Source of the DNA: Mucilaginibacter roseus
GTDB lineage: Bacteria > Bacteroidota > Bacteroidia > Sphingobacteriales > Sphingobacteriaceae
Direction: 5' to 3'
NCBI RefSeq assembly: GCF_021215455.1
Contig: NZ_JAJPWV010000001.1
Coordinates: 186,001-250,000 of the forward strand
Length of the DNA: 64,000 nucleotides
Below the pieces are notes generated by a model. That model searched no databases and was not told where the DNA came from. It saw nothing but the letters and a program-made list of their open reading frames with translations. This document shows positions 45,642 to 51,869 of the stretch, piece by piece. Every line of letters starts with the position of its first letter. Position 1 is the first letter of the stretch. The translations under genes and the position numbers were made by a program.

Positions 45642-46229
45642 CTATTTAATAGCATTTAGCGAAATAGGTAAGCTTACAGATAAAGCAGCTGTAAGCGTAT
45701 GAAGCACCCCGTTGCTGGTTAAAATATCATATCTGCTGATAATGGTTTGCAAACCGTAAGTGTCAGTAAGTACAACGTTACGGTTGGTGTTTACCTTCGC
45801 ATATAGTGTGATTGGCGCTATGGTAGTTAATTTAGCCTGCCCATTACCCGCATTTATCAACCTTGAAATATTTGCTGAGGTAAGTTTTCCTTGCATTATA
45901 TAACCTTTGACGTAATTAACAAGCGCAGCCTTGTTTTCGGGCTTGCGCAATGTATCCAATATCCCGGCAGCTAAACCATCAAAAGCCTTATTAGTAGGCG
46001 CCAAAACTGTTAACGGGTTAGTAGCGGAAAAACTGTTTTTCAACCCCGCGGCATCTATCAAACTAACAAATACCGAAAAATTGGCCGCGCCTTTTAAATT
46101 ATCGTAAGCGTTTTTGTTGGATGCCATCACGCTACCTTCAACGCTTTTTGACGTAATTGCAGGTGTTTGCGCCCGGGTAGCTTGTAACGAAACAAATACT
46201 AATAAAAAAGAGAGCAGTTTAAACCGCAT
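45642..46229 (-). CDS. Fasciclin (FAS1) domain secreted protein
   Basis: From the ATG at 46229 the protein is 195 residues with a signal peptide (LLSFLLVFVSLQATRAQ); an ATG at 46247 adds six residues. Residues about 40-190 are one FAS1 domain, with NFSVFVSLIDAAGL, the H1 box LTVLAPTNKAFDGL, LVNYVKGYIMQGKL and the H2-like NGVLHTLTAAL. FAS1 domains mediate adhesion or binding in the envelope. It begins 30 bases after the end of the large peptidase-barrel gene on the same strand, so the two may be co-transcribed. Confidence 0.85.
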   Translation of the reverse strand: MRFKLLSFLLVFVSLQATRAQTPAITSKSVEGSVMASNKNAYDNLKGAANFSVFVSLIDAAGLKNSFSATNPLTVLAPTNKAFDGLAAGILDTLRKPENKAALVNYVKGYIMQGKLTSANISRLINAGNGQAKLTTIAPITLYAKVNTNRNVVLTDTYGLQTIISRYDILTSNGVLHTLTAALSVSLPISLNAIK

Positions 46230-46258
46230 AAATAATAAGCTATACATACACTTAATAA

Positions 46259-49200
46259 CTACCAGCCCGGTGTAAAGTTGAAACCAAACACGGGTTTTTT
46301 AACATCGGTACGGTTAAACGGTATTGCAAAATAAGGCTCCAGTATCAGCGCGCCAAAAAGGTTTACACGTAGCGATATCCCCGCACTTAATGCCGGCACG
46401 CGCTGGTTGTTATTATACAAAGGCGCGTTTAGGTCCTGATAGGTGTTTCCGTTAGGATCAAGCACCGGTTGGCCTGCTTCATCCCTTAAAACATCGTATC
46501 CTAAAAAGTCAGGGCCCTTTTGAAACTTGATCTGGTTCCCCGCGTTCCAGGCCAAACCGGCATCAAAAAACAGGTTGAGATCAGTAAATAGGAAGTTGGA
46601 TTTAATCTGTGCCAATTTTTCCGGACCGGTAAATGGCAGTCTTATCTCAAAATTAGCCACCGCTATACGGCTACCCGAAAGCTGATTAAACCCGAAACCG
46701 TTGCTCGGCAGCCTGTCGGCATTGTAAAAGCTCTGCGATTCGTAACCACGTATCAGGAATGGATAACCTACATACAACGGATATAAATTATTTTCACCAA
46801 AGCGGCCTGTGCCGTATAAACGACCGGCGAAGGTAACCGGTGCTATCCGGATGTATTTACGTAGATCAATAGTAGGAGCGAAGAACTTGTAGGTACCAAA
46901 CACATATTGCGCCTCGATGTGGTATCTAAATCCGTTTAACGGAGCGGTTACACCAAAAAATGAATTGTCGCCAATCAGCGCCACGCTTGAGTTTACAAGT
47001 GCAAAAGAGTTAAGGTTAAATCCAAAATTTAAGTTATCAACCTCAGAATTTGGGACTTTTTTACGGTTAAAATCGTAATAATATAGTTGAGACGTAGCAG
47101 TATCAATTACATAAGTATTGCGGTAGCGGTCAGTACGATAGGTATTGTACGAGGCACCTAAACCAAACTGAACACGGTTTATACGTGAAATAGGGTATGA
47201 GGTGAAAAGGTTAACCGCATCCTCAAAGTTGCGGATGATATAACTGTCCTCGTTATAAACTCTTTCTTGCCTGCCATTTATTTCCTGTGTGCCTACTGAT
47301 GTATTGTAGAAACCAAACTGGTAAGGTATATGCGATACGCTGATGCCTTTATCCCAACGCCCTTTTTGGTTAATGTAAGCTACCTGCGCACCAAAATCGT
47401 AAATCTGGCCATTTACCGAGGCCGCCGCGTATAACTGGTTTTGCCCCAGTATATCACTAAATACACCCTGTATGCCGCTTGAAAGGCCGGTGCCATAAAA
47501 ACTGTTTACACCTATGCCTACGCCGCTGCTGGCTAACGCATCCAGTTTGAACATTGGTTTGTAAGGCGCACTCTTAATAGAATCAGTACGCAGACGCGGA
47601 TAGGCCAAAAAGTTATTAAGATTTGAGTTAATCAGGTCAACACCTACTGAGCGTGGCGGTGGTAACATACCTGCCGTAAAGTCTACTGTACCGCTTTGTA
47701 CCGTTTCGGGCTTAAAGTCGGTAGCCTTGGCGTTATATAAGGTATACTTTTGCGCGCGATAGTACGAGTAAACAATATCGTCATCATTAGACACACTCAG
47801 CGCAGGCGAAAATTCGGTAATGCCGCTGATTCCGGTAAAATAATTGGTAAGTCGCTCGGTTTTGCCGGTAGCCAACTCATAGCTGTACAGGTTGCGAAAA
47901 CCATCCTGATTTGACAGGAAGTAGATTTTGCTGCCATCAGCCGAGTATTGCGGATTCAGATTGTTAGCCCCATCAAATACTTTAATATCTGTTACCTTAC
48001 CGGTGGCCAGGTCAAGTTCAGCCAGGTTGAAAGGAATATCCTGCGCGGTACGTTTGTCGTAAGTGGTACGGTCGCTACTAAAGATGATCTTCTTGCCGTC
48101 CTTAGAGTAGCTTGGCTGATAGTCGGAATATTTATCGTTTGTGAGCTGCGTTACTTTTTTAGTATCAAAATTATAAGAATACAAGTCGCCCTGGCCCTCA
48201 TACAATCCCTGAAAAACTACGTTTTTGCCATCCGGTGACCATGACAGGTTACTGAATTGCTCCGCTTTGCCCATCGGGATGTTATGCCGCATGCGTCCGC
48301 TTGGCACATCTATTACCACCATTTGGTTATGGCCTTTATTAAATACGCTGAACGCGAACTGCTTGCCATCCGGCGACCATGCGCCTGCCGACTCTATAAA
48401 GTTAAATTCATCAATGTGTGTGTTCGATATTTTGCTCGTTAGCTTCTTGATGATCTTACCCGTCTTGGCATCAGCTAAAAAGAGGTCGATACTGAACAGA
48501 TCCTTTGATGAAAGGAAGGTGATATATTTGCCATCCGGACTAACACTTGGCGCAACATTCATTTCGCTGCCATTCTTATTGTCAATCACCTTAAAACCAA
48601 TAGTCTTTTGAGCGGTGTCTTTCAACATTGGTTTATAGGTCGACTCAATAGAATTTTTCCACAAGGTGGAAAGCGTTTTGTCATCATACCCAAATGTTCG
48701 CCTGATGCCATACTGCAAGCCAAAACGTGCCGTGTTTTTAAAGAAAGGCACGATCACCGTATCGCCATAAGTAGAGCCAATGAACGACCAGAATGCCTCG
48801 CCATACCGGTAAGGGAAGTATTTGTTGCTCTCGGTCAGATCTTTTACCGTCGGGATGTCTTTATTCAGGTAAGCATCGCGCATCCACATAGCAGTGTAAG
48901 CGTCTTTTTTACCAATTGAAAGATATTCTGCCATACCCTCGATCATCCACAGCGGTATATTGTTCAGGTTTTCATAGCTGGTTGAATCCTTGCCTAACAA
49001 AATATGGTATTGAAACGCGTGCACCAGCTCATGGCCTAAAACGTGGCGCGTGGTGTGGTTGGTTTCCATGATAGGCATTACCACGCGGTTTTTTAAACCT
49101 TCGGTGACACCGCCGGTACCCACACTTATTTCGCCATCAATAGCAGTAGTTTGTTGAAAATCAGGGTGATTATTATAAATGATTATCGGGTTAGGGCGGT

Positions 49201-49480
49201 TGAACGTATCTCTGAAAACCTGCTGGTGAAGCGTATACCAAAGCTCATTCTCCTGCGCAAAACGGCGTATCAGGCTATCATTCTTCATGTAATAGTAGAT
49301 ATCAAAGTGCGGCGTTTTGTACACCTTGAAATCGAGCTTTTTGTAACGCACTTTATTTTGACCGAAGTACTGCGCCTTGCTTTGCTGCGGGTTTAATAGT
49401 GCTATAGTTAACACACCTAAAAGCGCGAATATATATCTGGCTGATTTGCCGGTGAAAATGCAAGTGTAAAGTTTGTTCAT
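46259..49480 (-). CDS. Metallopeptidase / TolB-like propeller / Omp85-like barrel fusion
   Basis: The protein is 1073 residues with a signal peptide (IFALLGVLTIALLNPQQSKA). Residues about 45-290 are an MA-clan peptidase with HELVH (150-154) and a downstream Glu in WMIEGMAEYL as third zinc ligand. Residues about 300-600 contain PD40/TolB-type propeller repeats (SVSPDGKYITFLSS, WSPDGKQFAFSV, YSKDGKKIIFSSDRT). The last 400 residues are beta-barrel-like and end with LIRGYESQ (near 907), ANFEIRLPF and FDAGLAW, the pattern of Omp85/BamA barrels, and a terminal aromatic. Proteins of this size are often named only TolB-like or PD40. The fusion suggests a surface or periplasmic protease tethered by its own barrel. 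It is 49 bases downstream of nothing co-oriented except the penicillin-binding protein at 49542. Confidence 0.8.
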   Translation of the reverse strand: MNKLYTCIFTGKSARYIFALLGVLTIALLNPQQSKAQYFGQNKVRYKKLDFKVYKTPHFDIYYYMKNDSLIRRFAQENELWYTLHQQVFRDTFNRPNPIIIYNNHPDFQQTTAIDGEISVGTGGVTEGLKNRVVMPIMETNHTTRHVLGHELVHAFQYHILLGKDSTSYENLNNIPLWMIEGMAEYLSIGKKDAYTAMWMRDAYLNKDIPTVKDLTESNKYFPYRYGEAFWSFIGSTYGDTVIVPFFKNTARFGLQYGIRRTFGYDDKTLSTLWKNSIESTYKPMLKDTAQKTIGFKVIDNKNGSEMNVAPSVSPDGKYITFLSSKDLFSIDLFLADAKTGKIIKKLTSKISNTHIDEFNFIESAGAWSPDGKQFAFSVFNKGHNQMVVIDVPSGRMRHNIPMGKAEQFSNLSWSPDGKNVVFQGLYEGQGDLYSYNFDTKKVTQLTNDKYSDYQPSYSKDGKKIIFSSDRTTYDKRTAQDIPFNLAELDLATGKVTDIKVFDGANNLNPQYSADGSKIYFLSNQDGFRNLYSYELATGKTERLTNYFTGISGITEFSPALSVSNDDDIVYSYYRAQKYTLYNAKATDFKPETVQSGTVDFTAGMLPPPRSVGVDLINSNLNNFLAYPRLRTDSIKSAPYKPMFKLDALASSGVGIGVNSFYGTGLSSGIQGVFSDILGQNQLYAAASVNGQIYDFGAQVAYINQKGRWDKGISVSHIPYQFGFYNTSVGTQEINGRQERVYNEDSYIIRNFEDAVNLFTSYPISRINRVQFGLGASYNTYRTDRYRNTYVIDTATSQLYYYDFNRKKVPNSEVDNLNFGFNLNSFALVNSSVALIGDNSFFGVTAPLNGFRYHIEAQYVFGTYKFFAPTIDLRKYIRIAPVTFAGRLYGTGRFGENNLYPLYVGYPFLIRGYESQSFYNADRLPSNGFGFNQLSGSRIAVANFEIRLPFTGPEKLAQIKSNFLFTDLNLFFDAGLAWNAGNQIKFQKGPDFLGYDVLRDEAGQPVLDPNGNTYQDLNAPLYNNNQRVPALSAGISLRVNLFGALILEPYFAIPFNRTDVKKPVFGFNFTPGW

Positions 49481-49541: not shown

Positions 49542-51869
49542 TTATTGGCCCGGAGGCGGCGTTTCACCACCTTCAGGGTTATCAGGCAGGGTAAGTGTTG
49601 GCTCTGTGGCTGTGCTATCAGTGCTTACTTCTGTACTGTCGGTAGCCGCGGTATCAACCCTTATCCGTGGCGACGGGCACATGTATTGCTTGGTGATTTT
49701 AACCCATGGTTTTGGGAACGGACCTTCGGTATAACCTGATTTCGGATCGGCGTAAACCATCTCCATAAACTTGCCGAAAATTGGCAGCGCCGTGCGCGAG
49801 CCTTCGCCGGTTTCTGATGTTTTAAAGTGTACGCTACGGTCATCAGCGCCTACCCAAACACCGGTAACCAGGTCTTTGGTGATGCCCATATACCAGCCGT
49901 CCACATAGTCTGACGAGGTGCCGGTTTTGCCGCCAATCTGGTTGTTCTTTTTCCATAGATCGTACTCCCAAAGCGCCTGTGATGTACCGCCCGGTTCTTC
50001 CATACCACCCCTGAACATATAGAGCATCAGCCAAGCGGTTTCTTCGCTTATAACGCGTTCTTTTTTCAGTTCAAATTCTTCAATAACATTCCCTTGGTGA
50101 TCGGTAATGCGGGTTACCAGCAGCGGATCAAGTTTTTCGCCTTTGTTTAAAAACGTACTGTAGGCACGTACCATTTCATATACTGATACATCGTTTGATC
50201 CTAATGACACCGACGGTACTGATTTCAGATAGCTTTCAATACCGCATTTGTGCGCGTACTCAACTACCTTGTCCCAACCAACTTCCTCGGTTAACTGCGC
50301 GGTGATAGAGTTTACAGATTTACCCATAGCCCAGCGTAACGACATTTCGCGATACGAGAAATTAAAGTCGGCGTTGTTAGGCGACCATTCTTCGTCTTTG
50401 CCCTCATCCTTATAACGAATGGTAACCGGTTTATCGGTAAACTTATCGCAAGGCGTAAAGCCATTATCCAAAGCGGTTAGGTAAGCGAAAGGCTTAAAGG
50501 TTGAGCCGGCCTGGCGTTTAGCCTGTTTTACGTGATCGTAATTAAAGTATTTATAATCTATACCGCCCACCCAAACTTTTATTTTGCCGGTTGCCGGTTC
50601 AAGCGACATCATGCCGGTATTCAATATCCGGGCATAATATTTTATGGAGTCGATGCTTGAAAAGGTGGTATCCTGATCGCCTTTCCAAGTAAAAACACGC
50701 ATCCTTTTCTTCGTGTTAAAGTATTCCTGAATTTTGGTGGTATCACCATTATATTTCTTTTTCAGGATGCTGTAAATAGGGAGGCGTTGTTCAGATTTCA
50801 GTATAAAATCCTTGATCTCGTTGCCTTTCGAATCGCGCCAGGGGTTTTGTTTACCCCACACGTTATTAAAGCGGCGCTGTAACGATTTCATTTTATCAGC
50901 CACCGCTTCTTCGGCATATTTTTGCAGGCGCGAGTCGATGGTAGTGTATATTTTCAAGCCATCCTCGTACAGATTGTAGTCGTTATCCTTACACCATTTA
51001 TCCAGCCATTTTTCAACCGCGCGTCGCAGGTAAGAGTCGCCATGCGAATCCTGATCAACATAACTCAAATCAAGTTTCATCGGCTCTTTGCTGTAACGCT
51101 GCTGCTCGGCCTCGCTGATGAAATTATTTTTGCGCATCTGGCTCAATACCACGTTACGGCGCTCGGTTGATTTCTCAGGGTTACGTATCGGGTTGTAGGT
51201 TGATGTTGCCTTAAGCATACCGATCAAGGTAGCTGCCTGAGCAGGGTTAACATCATCCGGCTGCTCATTAAAATATTTCAAGGTAGCCGTTTTTATACCG
51301 AAGGAATTGTTACCGAAGGGTACGGTATTAAAATACATGGTAAGTATTTGCTGCTTGGTATACAGGTGCTCTATCTTGTAAGCGGTAAGCCACTCCTTAA
51401 ATTTATAAATAACGGTACCCAGGCCCGGAACGCGGCTCAATACGCCCCGCGCTTTCTTTTTACGGGTGCTGAACAGGTTTTTTGCCAACTGCTGCGTAAT
51501 GGTACTGCCGCCGCGACGATCACCTTGAGCTGTTGATACCATACTGCTGAAAAATGACAGAAAATCGACACCGCCATGGCTGTAAAAACGTGAATCCTCG
51601 GTAGCTACAAGTGCATTGATCAGGTTAGGGGAGATGTTCTTATAGTCGACAGGCGAGCGGTTCTCTTTGTAAAACTGACCGATGAGTTTACCATCAGCCG
51701 TATAAACTTCTGATCCTACCGAAAGCACAGGGGTTTTTATGTCCTCCATGTCAGGCGAATAGCCAAACAGCCACAAAAAGTTAAGTTCGATGGCGCAGAA
51801 AAAGATAATTACAAAATATATAAATATAACAAGATAGCGCAGGACGCGGTACTTAATGCGTTTGAACAT
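49542..51869 (-). CDS. Class A penicillin-binding protein (PBP1A-type)
   Basis: The protein is 775 residues. An N-terminal membrane anchor (YLVIFIYFVIIFFCAIELNF) is followed by a GT51 glycosyltransferase (ATEDSRFYSHGGVDF, GGSTITQQLAKNLF). The transpeptidase has its Ser nucleophile in GSTFKPFAYL (near 458), SVN in GKSVNSITAQL, and KTG in GGKTGTSSDYVDGW (near 646). It polymerises and cross-links peptidoglycan in the periplasm. The last 40 residues are a Thr/Glu/Pro-rich tail ending in GGETPPPGQ. It lies 61 bases upstream of the peptidase-barrel gene on the same strand. Confidence 0.95.
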   Translation of the reverse strand: MFKRIKYRVLRYLVIFIYFVIIFFCAIELNFLWLFGYSPDMEDIKTPVLSVGSEVYTADGKLIGQFYKENRSPVDYKNISPNLINALVATEDSRFYSHGGVDFLSFFSSMVSTAQGDRRGGSTITQQLAKNLFSTRKKKARGVLSRVPGLGTVIYKFKEWLTAYKIEHLYTKQQILTMYFNTVPFGNNSFGIKTATLKYFNEQPDDVNPAQAATLIGMLKATSTYNPIRNPEKSTERRNVVLSQMRKNNFISEAEQQRYSKEPMKLDLSYVDQDSHGDSYLRRAVEKWLDKWCKDNDYNLYEDGLKIYTTIDSRLQKYAEEAVADKMKSLQRRFNNVWGKQNPWRDSKGNEIKDFILKSEQRLPIYSILKKKYNGDTTKIQEYFNTKKRMRVFTWKGDQDTTFSSIDSIKYYARILNTGMMSLEPATGKIKVWVGGIDYKYFNYDHVKQAKRQAGSTFKPFAYLTALDNGFTPCDKFTDKPVTIRYKDEGKDEEWSPNNADFNFSYREMSLRWAMGKSVNSITAQLTEEVGWDKVVEYAHKCGIESYLKSVPSVSLGSNDVSVYEMVRAYSTFLNKGEKLDPLLVTRITDHQGNVIEEFELKKERVISEETAWLMLYMFRGGMEEPGGTSQALWEYDLWKKNNQIGGKTGTSSDYVDGWYMGITKDLVTGVWVGADDRSVHFKTSETGEGSRTALPIFGKFMEMVYADPKSGYTEGPFPKPWVKITKQYMCPSPRIRVDTAATDSTEVSTDSTATEPTLTLPDNPEGGETPPPGQ

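Follow-up and report, generated by a model that had tools for sequence, protein, structure and literature searches.

WD40-Omp85 proteins, as described in the article text of Heinz & Lithgow (2014), combine an Omp85 barrel with a TolB-like propeller, an arrangement that was likened to a fusion of BamA with BamB (PMC4104836). They are given as not well characterised by Hanson et al. (2024), who also revealed that the patatin domain of PlpD stays in the periplasm (PMC11116518). A 'Metallo' subfamily of Omp85 proteins, which is called Omp85-metalloprotease, is defined in the text of the 2014 article by the presence of PF00149 (PMC4104836). The M48 zinc peptidase BepA (YfgC) is located in the periplasm, where it probably works at BAM (PMC8423444), and LpoA and LpoB, which are confined to gammaproteobacteria, control PBP1A/B of E. 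coli from the outer membrane (PMC3060616).

The window analysed here, a stretch of 64,000 nucleotides from Mucilaginibacter roseus, contains a gene whose product carries a zinc-peptidase domain, followed in the same chain by a TolB-like propeller and a barrel of the Omp85 type. This order of domains had been proposed by a sequence-only reading and is confirmed by the combined results of Pfam, hhalign and AlphaFold/Foldseek; the conservation of the zinc site and the assignment of the barrel to Omp85 are likewise established, and the architecture as a whole is well supported. From these features we infer the location, activity, clients and role of the protein: there is about an even chance that it is a periplasmic zinc peptidase, which is anchored in the outer membrane and either processes envelope proteins or controls their quality.

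Architecture of the fusion protein

The open reading frame is uninterrupted between the ATG at 49480 and the stop codon ending at 46259 (minus strand) and encodes a protein of 1073 amino acids (Table 1), for which the full-chain AlphaFold model reaches a pLDDT of 83.0. The signal peptide was recognized by inspection from basic residues at its start, the hydrophobic core that follows and the AXA-type end; in the model, a helix spanning residues 12-29 is followed by a low-confidence stretch in this region. No lipobox is visible in the signal sequence. The source genome contains one copy of the fusion gene, and all other matches in this genome are to the propeller repeats only.

Table 1. Features of the fusion gene and its direct neighbours; positions refer to the 64,000-nucleotide window.
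Feature	Residues	Position	Strand	Remarks
Whole gene	1073 aa	46259..49480	(-)	signal peptide, zinc peptidase, TolB-like propeller, Omp85-like barrel
Signal peptide	1-36	49373..49480	(-)	likely signal peptidase I site SKA/Q (cut before Q)
Zinc-peptidase domain, Peptidase_MA-type (gluzincin)	46-285	48626..49345	(-)	Pfam PF13485
HELVH	150-154	49019..49033	(-)	H150, E151, H154; putative zinc ligands and catalytic Glu
EGMAE	181-185	48926..48940	(-)	E181 probable third zinc ligand; E185 probable His partner
TolB-like six-bladed beta-propeller	290-595	47696..48613	(-)	PD40, Foldseek, model strands
Short linker	596-644	47549..47695	(-)	49 residues, low conservation
Omp85-type 16-stranded barrel	645-1073	46262..47548	(-)	C-terminus PGW; model, Foldseek, hhalign
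IRGY	910-913	46742..46753	(-)	counterpart of the Omp85 VRGF/Y motif, loop 6
EIRLP	945-949	46634..46648	(-)	barrel strand 12
FFDAGLAW	971-978	46547..46570	(-)	barrel strand 13
Upstream neighbour, class A penicillin-binding protein		49542..51869	(-)	Transgly and Transpeptidase (PF00912, PF00905); 61 bp away
Downstream neighbour, secreted fasciclin-domain protein		45642..46247	(-)	PF02469, 68.4 bits; 11 bp past the stop

The zinc-peptidase domain

Residues 94-279 match the Pfam family Peptidase_MA_2 (PF13485) with 32.9 bits, which is barely over the cut-off of 32.4; relatives of the fusion protein score up to 56 bits. The HELVH motif and the downstream glutamate, which were pointed out in the sequence-only reading, could be located at residues 150-154 and at E181 (with E185, within EGMAE), and the numbering of E151 given there is correct. 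The protein thus carries the HExxH motif and the downstream Glu ligand that characterize the gluzincin or Peptidase MA superfamily. Thermolysin has an HExxH and an NExxxD pattern, with E166 and D170 in the latter. The pattern of the fusion protein resembles both, and we take E181 and E185 to have the roles of thermolysin E166 and D170, respectively. In an alignment of 38 sequences, which reaches down to 25% identity, residues H150, E151, H154, E181, G182 and E185 are invariant, and the HExxH motif occurs in every one of the 122 relatives examined, members of two deeply split clades included. A sequence search of the peptidase profile against solved structures found no relative.

Judged by the alignment, conservation is highest in the peptidase: 23% of its columns are near-invariant, compared with 10% each for the propeller and the barrel (odds ratio of 2.6 and p of 3e-6 for the peptidase versus the other domains, a statistic that ignores relatedness). 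This degree of conservation suggests that selection maintains catalysis.

The propeller and the linker

Several PD40 repeats had been noticed in the central part of the protein, and Pfam indeed assigns PD40 to four to five stretches with 92.6 bits; a match to DPPIV_N (39 bits) was found as well. The NCBIfam model for TolB, TIGR02800, matches partially with 116 bits, far under its equivalog cut-off of 343, and the propeller is therefore TolB-like and not TolB. TolB is also the best Foldseek match of the propeller (E 9e-13), which consists of about 25 strands in the AlphaFold model. The propeller ends near residue 595 and does not reach the C-terminus. The linker that follows comprises merely 49 residues, and a POTRA domain was not matched by Pfam anywhere in the 1073 amino acids. 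As a side observation, TolB_N has no match in the source genome (G000); classical TolB thus seems absent from a genome in which a TolB-like propeller is present in the fusion.

The barrel

The motifs LIRGYESQ, FEIRLPF and FDAGLAW, on which the assignment to the Omp85 type had originally been based, are all present, at about residues 909-916, 944-950 and 972-978, and their key residues are invariant across the 38 aligned sequences, which again reach down to 25% identity: R911, E945, R947, P949, F971 and D973 do not vary, and G912 and G975 are near-invariant. Structure prediction of the C-terminal barrel, the check that had been set beforehand, gave an AlphaFold (AF2) model with a pLDDT of 83.7, in which 16 strands were found by our own count and in which the loop bearing IRGY (residues 893-937) sits between strands 11 and 12. 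Loop 6 of BamA and other Omp85 proteins lies between the same two strands. The top 50 Foldseek matches of the barrel were all BamA or SAM, with E-values down to 2e-11, and an Omp85 relationship is thereby favoured over a TonB or porin barrel, as had been supposed. In terms of TM-score, these matches are moderate (0.39-0.48 by query and no more than 0.60 by target, at an rmsd of about 9-18 A), and the structural evidence is therefore at the level of the fold. A TonB-receptor or porin barrel was considered as a candidate and rejected, with none of these among the top 50 matches.

Profile comparison points in the same direction. When the alignment of 38 barrels was compared with Bacteroidota BamA-type barrels using hhalign, a probability of 97.3% (P 2.4e-11) was obtained, and a control with a reversed profile yielded 0.1%. 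In this comparison, IRGY is placed on the LRGF of BamA, FFDAGLAW on FVDAGNIW and EIRLP on the corresponding region of BamA. In its barrel, the source ORF matches no Pfam model, PF01103 included, and the families listed for the 37 sequences aligned with it do not include PF01103 either. Two more distant homologues exceed the PF01103 cut-off of 24, L157 with 47.1 bits and L160 with 30 bits, and both contain Peptidase_MA_2, PD40 and Omp85 in one chain, all over the Pfam cut-offs; L157 also matches the BamA model TIGR03303 with 1.2e-9, which is under the cut-off of that model. A sequence search of the barrel profile against solved structures found no relative. The barrel is Omp85-type according to profile comparison, predicted structure and intermediate relatives, and it shows features that mark Omp85/TpsB proteins, namely the 16-stranded BamA/Sam50 fold, the loop-6 motif, the conserved Glu in strand 12 and the conserved Asp in strand 13.

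An Omp85 barrel that retains the motif residues R911, E945 and D973 could itself be an assembly or translocation factor of the BamA or TamA kind, in which the propeller would replace POTRA or BamB and the peptidase would be secondary or regulatory; the likeness to a BamA-BamB fusion that the article text of Heinz & Lithgow proposed for WD40-Omp85 (PMC4104836) agrees with this idea. However, the most conserved part of the protein is the peptidase rather than the barrel, and a search of the source genome with PF01103 identified seven other Omp85 matches, the fusion ORF not being among them, so that such a role seems improbable. Two Omp85-matching ORFs of the source genome outside the window, of 1226 and 860 amino acids (L107, C1:19713-20366, and L108, C1:24691-25368), are located about 5 kb apart.

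Predicted orientation in the outer membrane

In outer-membrane barrels, the outer loops are usually long and the periplasmic turns short. In the barrel model, the side facing away from the N-terminus has eight connections with 153 residues in all, among them loops of 33, 45 and 51 residues; the seven connections on the N-terminal side add up to 39 residues. Because the long connections lie opposite the N-terminus, the peptidase and the propeller are predicted to face the periplasm and not the cell surface. This model-based placement disagrees with the earlier suggestion that the peptidase might act at the cell surface. The idea that patatin-Omp85 fusions expose their enzyme, which had been offered as a precedent, does not hold for PlpD, whose patatin domain is periplasmic (PMC11116518).

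Surface exposure would be expected if the protein worked by type V-like secretion, with the barrel moving the peptidase and the propeller to the surface, where external proteins would be digested. Protein translocation is indeed carried out by Omp85/TpsB relatives such as FhaC and was first proposed for PlpD as well, according to the text of the 2014 article (PMC4104836). Such a mechanism is nevertheless highly improbable here: the enzyme domain of PlpD was later found in the periplasm (PMC11116518), and the soluble part of the fusion protein comprises about 560 residues, which are attached to the N-terminus of the barrel on the side of the short turns. Neither of the two features that define type Vd, a patatin-like domain and one POTRA domain, was matched by Pfam.

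Distribution and relatives

The closest relatives of the fusion protein, at 94-95% protein identity, are found in Mucilaginibacter sp. JRF and UR6-1. More than 90 full-length relatives share the entire chain at 36-95% identity, and the architecture is therefore not due to chance. In its own family, the Sphingobacteriaceae, a match is present in 137 of 151 genomes and is nearly always single, which fits a housekeeping role. In the sample of the phylum, 212 of 296 genomes have a match at 1e-10, a number that is presumably higher than the count of orthologues because the weaker matches may cover the propeller only.

The tree consists of two clades. Members of the clade of the source protein mostly end in PGW and those of the other mostly in DF, a canonical terminus of outer-membrane proteins. 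The second clade (L157-L162 and L164-L178, from other genomes of the phylum) has the same order of peptidase, propeller and barrel and aligns at only 26-33% identity; both clades occur together in several genomes. One relative is known from outside Bacteroidota, in Candidatus Aminicenantes (25% identity), and its placement on a long branch is uncertain. In three genomes, the gene is broken, either by frameshifts or by assembly errors: into three consecutive frames in G440 (C2:276435-279699) and into two frames in G363 and G413.

Gene neighbourhood

As had been pointed out previously, the gene adjoins that of a cell-wall synthase, the class A penicillin-binding protein (PBP) encoded 61 bp upstream, and this adjacency turned out to be conserved across Sphingobacteriaceae. 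The PBP is the same-strand upstream neighbour in all 69 loci that extend far enough, with a gap of 17-275 bp, and in 7/7 further loci of the family, some of which are perhaps from the same species as earlier ones. In the Sphingobacteriaceae loci checked (L001-L070, L076-L082), the pair of fusion gene and PBP gene stays together while the other flanking genes change. The fasciclin-domain neighbour is less conserved, with a match in 38 of 71 loci. Genes for BAM, Lpt or chaperones were not found among the genomic neighbours examined, which speaks against a role in quality control; the neighbouring PBP hints at the cell wall instead.

It is therefore possible, if rather unlikely, that the protein is the outer-membrane partner of the upstream PBP, with the barrel as an anchor and the propeller binding PBP1 or the cell wall. 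With the same reservation, the peptidase might trim PBP1, a hydrolase or crosslinks, and wall growth might be coordinated as by LpoA/LpoB, the precedent for outer-membrane proteins that control PBP1A/B (PMC3060616). The constancy of the pair in 69/69 and 7/7 loci despite varying flanks makes a regulator of PBP1 the chief, albeit tentative, rival to a role in proteolysis. However, the PBP is absent from the vicinity of the gene in all more distant loci that were inspected, namely 22 full-length loci with 1.5 kb of flank and 20 loci with longer flanks, which partly overlap with the 22; the link is thus specific to one family and cannot serve to define what the protein family as a whole does. The source genome has five transglycosylase matches, and a neighbourhood by itself is no proof of interaction. 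The conserved adjacency is a real lead toward a possible wall-related role, which is limited to one family.

When ten neighbours of the distant loci were scanned, no shared partner was found; they are mostly unrelated housekeeping genes, repeated only pairwise, and include genes for a cation-chloride transporter, RelA/SpoT, dihydroorotate dehydrogenase and an RNase R-like protein. In the second clade, the gene is directly preceded by a gene for a metallo-beta-lactamase-fold protein in two loci (L158:7384-8298 and L159:4656-5594, both members of f26) and by an RNase R-like gene in two others (L161:3530-5746 and L162:3389-5497, families f21 and f34).

Proposed function

For the proposed role in proteolysis at the outer membrane, the following mechanism can be envisaged. 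The signal peptide would export the chain, and the last approximately 430 residues would form a 16-stranded barrel of the Omp85/BamA type in the outer membrane. The propeller and the peptidase would hang into the periplasm from the N-terminus of the barrel, at the place that is taken by POTRA domains in other Omp85 proteins. A partner or client might be bound or presented by the propeller, and envelope proteins would then be cut or processed by the peptidase on the periplasmic face of the outer membrane. In this way, BepA-like proteolysis would be joined to a BamA-like barrel and would serve quality control or maturation. The idea of periplasmic proteolysis is supported by two precedents, BepA (PMC8423444) and the periplasmic PlpD (PMC11116518). 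A more specific version, in which the protein would be a one-chain machine whose Omp85 barrel captures outer-membrane clients that are degraded or matured by the fused, active zinc peptidase, with the propeller resembling BamB, is unlikely.

Should the peptidase prove active on the inner side of the outer membrane, the protein would represent an Omp85 barrel with a built-in protease. A functional link to PBP1, on the other hand, would make it a regulator that acts on wall synthesis from the outer membrane, in a group beyond the range reported for LpoA/LpoB.

Comparison with known systems

LpoA and LpoB are anchored in the outer membrane and act on class A PBPs, which is the role that the fusion protein would have as a partner of PBP1; however, they are lipoproteins and not barrels, and no search revealed a relation to the fusion protein. 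TolB of the Tol-Pal system shares the six-bladed PD40 propeller, but it has an N-terminal TolB_N domain and lacks a barrel. BepA is, like the domain described here, a zinc peptidase at an Omp85 protein and located in the periplasm, a location that is predicted for the fusion; unlike the latter, it is a separate, unfused protein and belongs to another peptidase family. In PlpD, an enzyme domain is likewise located N-terminal to an Omp85 barrel and was shown to be periplasmic (PMC11116518); however, PlpD has a phospholipase-type domain and one POTRA domain, whereas the fusion protein has a zinc peptidase and a propeller and lacks POTRA.

The 'Metallo' group of Omp85 proteins is comparable by its name, Omp85-metalloprotease. 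The analysis confirmed that PF00149 is Metallophos, a phosphoesterase family, and it is not among the Pfam matches of the fusion ORF. Since the group rests on this phosphoesterase family, it is not the same as the peptidase fusion. As far as the article text goes, the name Omp85-metalloprotease appears to be a mislabel, which has been repeated by later papers. A naming trap is thereby exposed: the published 'metalloprotease-Omp85' group is based on the phosphoesterase family PF00149, and a real HExxH peptidase fusion is the one found here.

The closest known kind of protein is WD40-Omp85, which has been catalogued since 2014 and beside which the fusion protein is set by the published description, as far as the article text extends. 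In the article texts of the open-licence literature, the three-domain architecture leads only to Heinz & Lithgow (2014) and later mentions, and no mention of a peptidase domain in the WD40-Omp85 group was found there; the domain string of the fusion protein may already be visible in domain databases. WD40-Omp85 has been named but unstudied since 2014, and the invariant zinc-peptidase site offers a concrete and testable activity. As in WD40-Omp85, the propeller of the fusion protein is located directly N-terminal to the Omp85 barrel, without POTRA (as given in the text of PMC4104836). The description in that text mentions no peptidase, whereas in the fusion protein and all relatives tested the propeller is preceded by an intact zinc-peptidase motif.
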